DNA from: Halomicroarcula saliterrae
Lineage (GTDB): Archaea; Halobacteriota; Halobacteria; Halobacteriales; Haloarculaceae
Reading direction: 5' to 3'
DNA length: 64,000 nucleotides
Assembly: GCF_031624395.1 (NCBI RefSeq)
Contig: NZ_JAMQON010000002.1
Coordinates: 248,001 to 312,000 of the forward strand
Shown here: piece after piece, positions 29,630 to 33,402 of the stretch
Numbering within the stretch: position 1 is the stretch's first letter
Layout: every line of letters begins with the position of its first letter
Position numbers and translations under genes: made by a program
The notes under the pieces: generated by a model
Database searches by the model: none
Told to the model about the DNA's origin: nothing
Seen by the model: the letters and a program-made list of their open reading frames with translations, nothing else

Positions 29630-31249
29630 TTACTGTTTCGAGTCGCCGGTCAGCGCCGCTTCGAGCTCCCCGGGCGTCGCGCCCTCGGCCGTGACGGTGT
29701 CGCCCTCGAACCGACGGGCGACGCCGTCGCCGTCGGGGTCGGGTACCACCGTCGTCTCGTGGTCGGCCATGCGGAGCGCCGCGCGGTGGAGGTCCGTCCC
29801 GGCCTCGGTGCCGACGACGAGTCGCTGGGGGTCCTGCAGGCGGGCGGCGACGCTCGCGTAGCCGGCGACTTCGACGCCCATCCGCTCGGCGGCGCCGGCG
29901 AAGGACTCGACGGCCTCGGTGGCGACCGCCCGGTACCGGTCCTCACCGGTGAGGGCCGCCAGGTCCACCAGCGCGTCGGCGAGTTCGACCGTCGAGTCCA
30001 GCGGGTGCAGCGAGCGGCCACACAGCCCCGCCCCGCTCGCCGGCCCGTCGCGGAAGGCGCCGGAGTCCTGCCGGCGCTGCTCGATGGTCCAGTCGGCGAC
30101 GGCCTCGGCCGGCCCGCCCTCGCCCAGCACCTGCCAGCTCGTCGTCAGCCCCTGGAGCACCCCCGCCTGGTCGACGAGGAGGCCGCGGTGGCTGTCCGCG
30201 GCGTCGTCGTGAATCACCACCCCGTCGCCCACGAGCTCCGTACAGACGTAGTCGCGCGCCCGCTCGGCGTAGCGCCGGGCAGTAGCGTCGCCCGTGTAGG
30301 CGTGAGTCCACAGCAGCCCGTCGACGGCCAGCCCGTTCCGGTCGGCGAACACAGTCGTATCGACGTGGGGCGCGTCGGCGTCCTCCCGGTCCGTCGGGCT
30401 CGCCTGATAGTAGTCGTCGTCGCCGGCCTGACTGCCGGCGAAGGCGTCGCCGGTCCACAGCTCCGTGGTCAGGTATTCGACGGTCCGCATGGCGGTGTCC
30501 CGGTAGGCCTCCGTCCCAGTGTAGCGGTAGCCGTGGGCGAACGCCCGGACCAGCGCCGCGTTCTCGTCTAACAGCTTCTCCCGGCGCGGGTTCGACCAGT
30601 CCCGGCCCGTGGCATAGCGGTAGAAGCCGCCGTCGTACGTGTCGAGCAGATGCGTCTGGACGGCTTCGAGGGTGCGGGTGGCCTGGTCGCGCGCCCTGAC
30701 GAGCGCGAACTCGATAGTGCGGGCCAGCGGGAACTTCACGTCCGACCCCCACCCCCCGAACTCCTCGTCGAACGAGCCCAGCAGCTGCTCTACCATGTGT
30801 TCCTCGATTCGGGGGCGGAGCTCGCCCGCGGGCGGGGCCTCGTCCTGCAGCTGGCGCGGCACCGAGCCGGCCGTGGCCCCCTTCGCGTCCCACGATTCAC
30901 GCACCGAGTCGAGAATCCCCCTGAAGCCGTCGGGCCCCAGAAAGGTCGCCCCGCTGATGACCTCGCCCTCGGGCGTCAGGAACACCGTCGACGGGAACCC
31001 GCCCATCGTGTAGCGTTCCCGGACCAGCGGGTTCCGGTCGGCGTCCACTCGAACGGGGACGAACCCGTCGTTGATGTTGGCCGCGATGCGTGGCTCGCCG
31101 AAGACGCCCCGGTCCATCGCCCGACACTCCGGACTCCAGGGCACCGTCAGCGAGAGCAACAGCGGCTTGCCGCTACCGGCGGCCCGCTCGAACGCCTCGG
31201 GCCCCCACTCGCGCCACTCCACTTTCGTCTCCGCTGCGAATTCGTCCAT
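29630..31249 (-). CDS. DUF255 thioredoxin-like protein with six-hairpin domain
   Basis: 539 residues: an N-terminal thioredoxin-fold domain (about 1-115; YTMGGFPSTVFLTPEGE holds the cis-Pro) and a C-terminal alpha/alpha barrel (about 130-530; EEFGGWGSDVKFP, DTYDGGFYRYATGRDWSNPRREKLL in parts). The family is YyaL/spermatogenesis-associated 20. The redox site reads VPWSPECRAMDR, so only one Cys of the usual CxxC remains. This argues against a dithiol oxidoreductase. The ATG at 31249 fits the family; the open frame that runs further to 33040 is antisense to the P450 gene. Confidence 0.85.
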   Translation of the reverse strand: MDEFAAETKVEWREWGPEAFERAAGSGKPLLLSLTVPWSPECRAMDRGVFGEPRIAANINDGFVPVRVDADRNPLVRERYTMGGFPSTVFLTPEGEVISGATFLGPDGFRGILDSVRESWDAKGATAGSVPRQLQDEAPPAGELRPRIEEHMVEQLLGSFDEEFGGWGSDVKFPLARTIEFALVRARDQATRTLEAVQTHLLDTYDGGFYRYATGRDWSNPRREKLLDENAALVRAFAHGYRYTGTEAYRDTAMRTVEYLTTELWTGDAFAGSQAGDDDYYQASPTDREDADAPHVDTTVFADRNGLAVDGLLWTHAYTGDATARRYAERARDYVCTELVGDGVVIHDDAADSHRGLLVDQAGVLQGLTTSWQVLGEGGPAEAVADWTIEQRRQDSGAFRDGPASGAGLCGRSLHPLDSTVELADALVDLAALTGEDRYRAVATEAVESFAGAAERMGVEVAGYASVAARLQDPQRLVVGTEAGTDLHRAALRMADHETTVVPDPDGDGVARRFEGDTVTAEGATPGELEAALTGDSKQ

Positions 31250-31421
31250 ACCGGGTGTCGGTGATGGGCACACATAGGGGCTGTCACTCCGGGTAAACAT
31301 GGGTCGATGCGAGCGATGTCGACAGACCTGCACCATGATAGACGGAGTCACCGCTGCGAGAGCGACAGTAAGAACAACCAGAAAGTCCCACCCATGCCGG
31401 CTGACCAACCAGCTACGGGTG

Positions 31422-31618
31422 GACTGAAAGGGGCGAACCGTTCGACGACGGCGGACGACGCAAGCACTGGACCGAGCGAAGTCGTTCGAAAGGCGCGAAG
31501 CGCCTTTCGTGATGACGAGAGAGCTACGCTCTCTCGAACCAGGGAAGCGCACAGCGAGTCCCCCGAATCGAACGGTTCGGGGCTTTCTAGCTGTCAGTAT
31601 CGGGCTGCTATCAGCCAA
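31422..31618. ncRNA. hairpin-rich segment, possible structured RNA
   Basis: Within the 429-bp gap before the P450 gene there are several exact hairpins: CGAAAGGCGC-GAA-GCGCCTTTCG (31487-31509), CGAGAGAGC-TAC-GCTCTCTCG (31516-31536), CCCCGAA-8 nt-TTCGGGG (31561-31582) and GGCTG-CTAT-CAGCC. A 12-nt arm CGAACCGTTCGA (31434-31445) is also complementary to 31568-31579 and would enclose the first two hairpins. No coding frame explains this. Strand and function are unknown. Confidence 0.4.
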
Positions 31619-31678: not shown

Positions 31679-33052
31679 ATGGCAACTCAGGAGGTGGACC
31701 GTCCGGGACCGGTCACGCCGGGGTCGAAACCACCCCGACCCGGTCGCGTGCCGCTGGTGGACAACACGCTCTCGATGCTGCGGGACCCGCTGGGGTTTTA
31801 CGACCGCGTGGGCGAGATGGACGCCGACGTGGTCGGCTACAACGTGGCCGGGACGACGGGCTACTTCGTCACGCATCCGGACCTCGTCGAACGGATACTG
31901 GTGACAGACGAGGGCGACTACGAGAAGGGCGCGCTCCTCCAGCGCACGCTCGGGGAGTACATCGGCGAGGGGCTGTTCCTGCTGGAGGGCGACGAGTGGA
32001 AAGCGCAACGAACCGCGCTCCAGCCGGCGTTCTACCGCGAGCGAATCGCGGCCTACGGGGCGACGATGACCGACTTCGCCGCCGAAATCGGCGACGGCTG
32101 GACCGACGGCGAGCGCTTCGACGTGCTCCCCGAGATGCGCGAGTACACCCTGCGAGTGCTCGGGAAGACGCTGCTGGACGTGGACATCGACCGGACCGCC
32201 GGCGCGCTGGAGCCGCTGCTGGCCGCGCTCCGGGAGCGACTCGACCCCCGCTCGCTGTCGGCCTACGTCCCGCTCGCCGTGCCGACGCCGACCAACCGCC
32301 GCGTCCGGTCGGCTCGGGCGACCTTCGAGGCGACGCTCGACGACATCATCGCCGAGCGACAGGCCGAGACCGCCGAGGACAGGGCGGCCCGCGACGACGT
32401 GCTCTCCCTGCTGCTGTCGCTGGACGAAGCGACGATGACCCGCGAGCGGCTGGGCCACCAGCTCCTGACCTTTCTGGTGGCGGGCCACGACACGACGGCG
32501 CTGACGCTCACCTACACGTGGTACCTGCTGGGCCGCCACCCCGAGGTCCAGGCGACCCTCCACGACGAACTCGATTCTGCGCTGGGCGGCGCCGACCCGA
32601 CGGCCGAGGACCTCTTCGAGCTGCCGTATCTCGACGACGTACTGACCGAGGTGCTGCGGCTCTACCCGCCGGCGTTTACCACCTTCCGCCAGCCGACGCG
32701 GCCTGTCGAACTCGGCGGCTACGACATCGCGCCCGACGCCCAGCTCACGATTCCCCAGTGGCTGGTCCACCGCGACGAGCGCTGGTACGACGACCCCGAC
32801 AGCTTCCGCCCCGAACGCTGGACCGACGCCTTCGACGAGTCGCTGCCCGACTACGCCTACTACCCCTTCGGCGGCGGCCCACGGCACTGCATCGGCATGC
32901 GCTTTGCGCGCATGGAGGCGAAACTCGCCATCGCCACGCTCGCCCAGCGCTACCGCTTCGAGACCGTCACCGAACCCCCGCTGGAGCTGGCAATGCGGAT
33001 TACGCTCTCGCCGACCGAACCGGTCGACGTTCGGGTTCACGAGCGGGCGTGA
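31679..33052 (+). CDS. cytochrome P450
   Basis: 457 residues, soluble. I-helix AGHDTTALTLTYTWYLL (oxygen-binding AGxDTT), ExxR in DVLTEVLRLYPP, the PERW region DSFRPERWTDAF and the heme loop FGGGPRHCIGMRFARME with the Cys thiolate. No signal or membrane anchor. It oxidises an unknown, probably hydrophobic substrate and needs a ferredoxin/reductase. A 3Fe-4S-type ferredoxin is encoded at 19384-19725, but not adjacent. Length is normal for CYP174-like haloarchaeal enzymes; that sub-family is a guess. Confidence 0.93.
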   Translation: MATQEVDRPGPVTPGSKPPRPGRVPLVDNTLSMLRDPLGFYDRVGEMDADVVGYNVAGTTGYFVTHPDLVERILVTDEGDYEKGALLQRTLGEYIGEGLFLLEGDEWKAQRTALQPAFYRERIAAYGATMTDFAAEIGDGWTDGERFDVLPEMREYTLRVLGKTLLDVDIDRTAGALEPLLAALRERLDPRSLSAYVPLAVPTPTNRRVRSARATFEATLDDIIAERQAETAEDRAARDDVLSLLLSLDEATMTRERLGHQLLTFLVAGHDTTALTLTYTWYLLGRHPEVQATLHDELDSALGGADPTAEDLFELPYLDDVLTEVLRLYPPAFTTFRQPTRPVELGGYDIAPDAQLTIPQWLVHRDERWYDDPDSFRPERWTDAFDESLPDYAYYPFGGGPRHCIGMRFARMEAKLAIATLAQRYRFETVTEPPLELAMRITLSPTEPVDVRVHERA

Positions 33053-33080
33053 CTGCTCGGTCGCTATCGCTCACGACGCC

Positions 33081-33402
33081 GCTTCGAGGTGTCTCCCTTC
33101 GGTCACGCCTCGCTACTCCACGGCTCCACGGGTCGCTCACGGCTTCGCCGTTCGCCTTCGAGGCGTTCCCTTCGGTCACGCCTCGCTACTCCCCGTTCCG
33201 CTTCGAGGCGTTCCCTTCGGTCACGCCTCGCTACTCCCCGTTCCGCTTCGAGGTGTCTCCCTTCGGTCACGCCTCGCTACTCCCCGTTCCGCTTCGAGGC
33301 GTTCCCTTCGGTCACGCCTCGCTACTCCACGGCTCCACGGGTCGCTTCGCTCCCCGTTCCGCTTCGAGGCGTTCCCTTCGGTCACGCCTCGCTATCTCTC
33401 GA
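33081..33402 (+). repeat. six-copy degenerate tandem repeat between P450 and fxsA
   Basis: A 39-45-bp unit containing CTTCGAGG...CCCTTCGGTCACGCCTCGC occurs six times, starting near 33081, 33155, 33200, 33245, 33291 and 33361. Four neighbours are spaced 45-46 bp; the outer two pairs carry an extra CACGGCTCCACGGGTCGCT insert (70-74 bp). Two variants (GGTGTCTCCC and GGCGTTCCC) alternate. Open frames through it are by-products. Function unknown. Confidence 0.8.

Follow-up and report, generated by a model that had tools for sequence, protein, structure and literature searches.

Small palindromic mobile elements with no gene of their own have been described in the haloarchaeon Haloquadratum walsbyi, where the small mobile repeats (SMRs) comprise SMR-A of about 110 bp and one SMR-B of 80 bp, with copies that are more than 95% identical (PMC3119063). 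SMR-A inserts, without target duplications, into palindromes close to the termini of PATEs and IS605-type elements, and its mobilisation was called "enigmatic"; terminal-only PATEs of 52 bp were reported in the same study (PMC3119063). Strong expression of a PATE in the reverse direction was reported in a paper that also cites a functional PATE ncRNA in Halobacterium (PMC10544981).

We analysed a segment of Halomicroarcula saliterrae DNA that lies between two divergent genes in the window (the whole stretch of 64,000 nucleotides under analysis). It is repetitive in its own genome, and its copies split into an outer and an inner part, each of which is also found separately; these are called B and A, respectively, below. 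The closest known relatives of A are the SMRs. Like SMR-A and SMR-B it is short and non-coding, has inverted ends, makes no target duplication and has no known enzyme; it also appears to share their liking for palindromes that belong to other mobile elements, IS605-type ends among them, although most of its sites lie elsewhere. It differs from SMR-A in its length of 60 bp, in stems that are highly variable between copies and in its order-wide distribution, and we regard it as a variant of the SMR kind rather than as SMR-A itself, the comparison with HqIRS40-43/55 being one of descriptions. With the REP/BIME repeats and their RAYT proteins A shares two inverted hairpins, conserved foot sequences and an extragenic position, but its foot sequences are different, it forms exact 60-bp insertions into other repeats, and the Y1-type transposase family is absent from the window's genome. 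B resembles MITEs and foldback elements in having terminal inverted repeats and no gene (a two-armed B is nearly one large palindrome); however, no parent transposon was found for B, and its long, copy-specific paired stems contain G-A internal loops. A in turn differs from MITEs by the lack of a target duplication at its empty site in genome G378 (below).

The hairpins upstream of the P450 gene

A preliminary description of this locus placed stems of 10, 9 and 7 bp and a pair of 12-nt arms between positions 31422 and 31618 and noted that the arms could close them into one multibranch fold. All of these pairings are present, and the distal arm of the 12-bp pair is indeed shared by the long-range stem and the local 7-bp stem (Table 1); the long-range pair is prolonged by GAAAG (31426-31430) and CTTTC (31583-31587). 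The hairpins lie inside those limits, but the outer repeat begins further to the left, so that its stretch 31374-31423 is missed, and the single multibranch fold must be given up for this site, as the 10- and 9-bp hairpins are a separate 60-bp insertion, A, within repeat B. Of the other two stems, both in the B arm, the 12-bp pair corresponds to X and the 7-bp one offers a local alternative. The region 31418-31600 folds at -85.3 kcal/mol on the + strand (z -4.3) and at -88.5 kcal/mol on the - strand (z -6.5), in both cases better than 200 of 200 dinucleotide shuffles. A search for homology and covariation, proposed as the check on these hairpins, found the structure conserved and covarying, with matches across Halobacteriales.

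Plasmid matches of the segment lie in stretches without listed genes, except for one under a transposase. Viral sequence searches gave no match that would indicate a phage or viral origin, Rfam 15 gave no match above its curated thresholds for the window segment or for intact copies (sub-threshold hits only), and literature searches with the sequence motifs of the repeats returned nothing relevant among the open-licence papers listed. The hammerhead core is CUGAUGA...GAAA, and this core is not present in the A/B segment.

Table 1. Positions of the repeats, their parts and the neighbouring genes in the window
Feature	Position	Strand	Sequence or structure	Basis or remark
DUF255/Thioredox_DsbH protein gene (PF03190)	29630..31249	-		divergent neighbour, outside the repeats
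Outer repeat B, one-armed copy	31374..31594	.		about 25 own-genome loci, order-wide, orthologous site in relatives
Terminal inverted repeat of B	31374-31385 / 31583-31594		ACAACCAGAAAG / CTTTCTAGCTGT	
Central palindrome of B	31386..31423	.	TCCCACCC...GGGTGGA	read from sequence, common to B copies
B hairpin arm	31424..31587	+	CTGAAAGGGGC-X ... X'-GGGGCTTTC, about 107 nt without A	covariation
X, 5' arm of copy-specific B stem	31434..31445	+	12 bp	X:X' complementarity
Element A, double-hairpin insertion in B arm	31482..31541	+	TCGTTCG...CGAACCA, 60 bp	sharp ends, empty site of another own-genome copy, order-wide
Hairpin 1 of A	31487..31509	+	10 bp (31487-31496/31500-31509), 3-nt loop GAA	sequence and covariation
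Conserved linker of A	31510..31515	+	TGATGA (in CGTGATGACG)	copies compared
Hairpin 2 of A	31516..31536	+	9 bp (31516-31524/31528-31536), 3-nt loop TAC	sequence and covariation
Local alternative stem in B arm	31561-31567/31576-31582		7 bp, CCCCGAA/TTCGGGG	
X', 3' arm of B stem	31568..31579	+	12 bp	overlaps the local alternative stem
Cytochrome P450 gene (PF00067)	31679..33052	+		neighbour, outside the repeats

Element A, a 60-bp double hairpin

The frame of A is GTCGTTCG-stem-CGTGATGACG-stem-CGAACCA. Family members are about 54-75 bp long, too small for a transposase gene, and in aligned copies from many genomes their ends are sharp against unrelated flanks; the terminal inverted repeats (GTCGTTCG ... 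CGAACCAC / CGGACGAC) are short and imperfect. An empty site is available for the own-genome copy G000:C4:341194, where the related genome G378 reads "...ccctcccacag^cggcgcgaagcgccg..." against "...tcctctcacag(60 bp)cggcgcgaagcgccg...". In this one clean case 60 bp have been inserted at cacag^cggcg with no target duplication and no loss, so the element is the 60 bp TCGTTCG...CGRACCA, which corresponds to 31482-31541 in the window. The base directly 3' of A is C in 151 of 168 sites, while the G directly 5' of it was fixed by the search pattern. A is thus a self-contained unit whose insertion point lies exactly between a G and (usually) a C, with the target left unduplicated.

Both hairpins of A, like the arms of B (below), keep their pairing while the sequences of their stems vary. 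Among 25 copies of equal length 98.7% of the cells are paired and nine pairs are doubly changed, a result that none of 500 shuffles equalled, and control structures slid along the same copies reach at most 59% pairing. The 153 distinct copies carry 46 and 43 distinct stems in the two hairpins, with a Watson-Crick share of about 97%. Mismatches in the stems are G-T rather than A-C in a ratio of 29:14 (p 0.03, uncorrected for relatedness), a slight G-T excess that could equally reflect a function as RNA or on one strand. The GNA/TNC triloops at first seemed strongly asymmetric between the strands, but this faded to p 0.09 once redundancy had been removed and was not used. The feet of the stems were searched for with four S positions left free (GTS...GTSATSAC...SAC), and by manual count the 75 listed sites have just two arrangements, GTC-GTGATGAC-CAC in 64 and GTC-GTGATCAC-GAC in 11. 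In both of them the four trinucleotides form two complementary pairs, which suggests that base pairing between the feet matters, perhaps in the manner proposed below.

With the stems left free, the exact frame was found in 223 of 392 Halobacteriales genomes and in 70 of 95 genera, and the reversed pattern gave no hit in the same 392 genomes. In a phylum-wide draw A was found in none of 242 genomes outside Halobacteriales, all 38 positives lying within the order. The copies are mostly intergenic, and by heuristic gene calls the four orientations of the flanking genes are nearly equally frequent (33, 33, 29 and 24), with convergent neighbours at 33 of 119 copies; this absence of orientation bias speaks against a terminator or a leader.

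A prefers palindromes and often enters them at the junction of stem and loop. It lies inside B arms at 51 of 168 flanked sites (30%) as against 9 of 613 control positions, and the insertion point is bridged by a hairpin with 7 bp or more at 11.9% of its sites as against 2.3% of the control positions. About 16 of the 168 sites lie in GCCTCGGGG^CTTGACCCCGAGGC-like palindromes, the clearest cases, with A at the junction of stem and loop, and at two loci (L076 and L082) a TnpB gene (PF07282, PF01385) directly upstream ends beside A, which there adjoins the right end of an IS605-type element. About 70% of the sites do not fall within a recognisable B arm, and at most sites the junction lacks a long hairpin. 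In its own genome A is present in three B copies (the window, L010 and L009) at three different positions and is thus independent of B. We note that five loci (L282, L088, L115, L132 and L170) have A at the same site, GGTCTTGCTGAGCGGAG^CGAAGCAAGGCTCG, within another palindromic insert, and that the loop of hairpin 1 there appears inverted between relatives, AA versus TT. The region upstream of the flanking gene in the G000/G378 empty-site comparison (L265-L294) carries different hairpin blocks in almost every species of the genus; the flanking gene itself is about 90% identical, and the intergenic region is a hotspot for palindromic inserts.

Outer repeat B and the history of the P450 site

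The ends of B were set by comparing copies. In a complete copy the central palindrome, CCCACCC...GGGTGGG, is flanked on both sides by a hairpin arm of the form CTGAAAGGGGC-X ... X'-GGGGCTTTC, and terminal inverted repeats near ACAGCCAGAAAG/CTTTCTGGCTGT bound the whole; of the two arms, one has been lost from the copy in the window. Beyond its own genome (Table 1), B-type matches are present in 114 of 146 sampled Halobacteriales genomes. No precise empty site was found for B, and the relatives that lack it are too divergent for a target duplication to be read. Among 63 arms there are 58 distinct versions of the first ten bases of X, and X and X' are nevertheless complementary over at least 8 bp in 83% of them, compared with 1.7% when arms are mixed. 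The 19 intact arms form one long hairpin with invariant GA/GA internal loops, in which 97.2% of the cells are paired and 23 of 34 pairs are doubly compensated (none of 500 shuffles as good; 140 doubly changed cells versus 45 in shuffles). At alignment columns 34-35/76-77 and 51-52/60-61 GA stands (nearly) invariantly opposite GA and the neighbouring pairs vary freely, an arrangement that resembles tandem sheared G-A pairs. B arms lie between divergent genes in 22 of 48 cases, an excess that we do not interpret because the sample counts the P450 locus several times.

Tandem arrays were also seen at two places. Downstream of the P450 gene, at window positions 33060-33400, near-identical CTTCGAGGCGTTCCCTTCGGTCACGCCTCGCTACTCC-type units form a tandem array of palindromic pieces. 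At locus L316 of G378, orthologous to G000:C2:545086, four units of about 48 bp (ACGGCCAGAAAGCCCCGCTAGCAATCTGACACACGAATGCTGCAGTGT) lie to the left of a B copy, so the ends of B can give rise to such arrays.

In most of the genus the P450 orthologues have a short upstream region of about 85-170 nt without B or A. Four relatives (L211, L212, L213 and L215) carry B at the orthologous site and a fifth (L214) retains a fragment of it, and A is absent from every one of these copies, so A most likely arrived later; the insertion of B is dated by presence and absence alone. Stem X is identical at this site in three species and differs from that of the paralogues, and in L211 and L212 the X of the left arm, GAACCGTTCGA, equals the window X in the opposite direction. 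A plausible history would be that B first flipped between its inverted ends and then lost an arm. Other B arms have been swapped between species at this same site, and across the locus (L211-L215 and the window) the stems differ by species, as if arms were replaced or converted as units.

Nature and possible movement of the repeats

We interpret the segment as two mobile palindromic repeats of haloarchaea, one nested in the other and both non-coding and non-autonomous, with a probability of roughly 0.78; of the natures initially suggested for it, "transposon relic" thus pointed in the right direction. The riboswitch-like leader suggested beside it, an RNA regulator of the P450 gene with two exclusive folds, is very improbable. 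The hairpins lie 85 nt before the P450 start and two of the stems are mutually exclusive, but the structure is not conserved upstream of P450 orthologues (in its conserved form this idea is already refuted), the same elements stand beside unrelated genes in all orientations, and the alternative stem is made of CCCC/GGGG parts common to many B arms and is no feature of the P450 gene. With orthologues that lack A and mostly lack B, and with no orientation bias of A, such a leader is unsupported, and A and B are most likely passengers near this gene. A role of A as a transcription terminator or box C/D guide RNA has just as slight a chance: its hairpins are stable, GTGATGA resembles box C and one weak Rfam hit was to sR-tMet (20 bits against a threshold of 50 bits), yet A has no T run and no preference for convergent genes, it contains no box D (CTGA), its second form has GTGATCAC in place of box C, and its target sites are clean insertions.

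Two readings deserve more weight, though each is unlikely. The arms of B could constitute a genuine family of non-coding RNAs, each a long hairpin interrupted by tandem G-A internal loops; the window copy would then have been broken by A. The strong one-strand covariation, the invariant GA/GA internal loops between varying pairs, the identity of X in three species at the orthologous P450 site but not in paralogues, and the PATE transcripts mentioned at the outset are in keeping with this, but a hairpin acting as DNA predicts equal covariation, the arms occur as inverted pairs within an inverted-repeat element, they have been replaced between species at one and the same site, and Rfam has no match above threshold. 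It is also rather improbable that A represents the terminal-only PATE form of an IS605-type transposon, with a Y1 TnpA as the mobilising enzyme. A shares with PATEs and the IS200-IS605 elements its near-terminal hairpins (two in A), the lack of target duplication and a single-strand logic; its size is near that of the 52-bp terminal-only PATEs (PMC3119063), and it has inserted beside TnpB right ends. Unlike them A has inverted terminal sequences and, as far as seen, enters stem-loop junctions and does not follow a fixed tetranucleotide. Furthermore, no longer element with the ends of A was found, and the IMG/VR viral contigs contain no A. The Y1 transposase (PF01797) is missing from the window's genome and from several A-rich genomes (such as G104, G033, G034 and G044), so an IS200-like mechanism is unsupported there, although the enzyme may have been present in the past.

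Under the preferred reading, a nest of two mobile repeats, B, a repeat with terminal inverted repeats, a palindrome at its centre and either one or two long hairpin arms, would have entered the space between the DUF255 and P450 genes in an ancestor of part of the genus, and later, in the window lineage only, the 60-bp A would have inserted into the B arm. A may move as folded (single-stranded) DNA: a host-wide enzyme acting in trans would recognise its hairpins and the conserved, mutually complementary feet and would join it into the loops of hairpins that are exposed in single-stranded form, much as seems to happen with SMR-A in Haloquadratum. The copy-specific paired stems might be kept by selection for structure, by templated repair within palindromes, or by both. 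We suggest tentatively, as a possibility with the odds against it, that A is the product of an undescribed DNA-mobilisation system of Halobacteria, whose structure-recognising enzyme, neither Y1 nor DDE, would carry a double hairpin of 60 bp from one stem-loop junction to another, leave the target unduplicated and join the ends of the hairpin element by way of base-paired feet, two complementary pairs in each copy.

SMRs were named in one species (PMC3119063), and A, which behaves in the same way, is much shorter and spread over the whole order; its exact empty site, recognisable target preference and testable foot code make a search for the enzyme practical. Strong hairpin covariation in haloarchaeal intergenic DNA can stem from mobile DNA palindromes, and by itself it is no ground for calling such a sequence a regulatory RNA.
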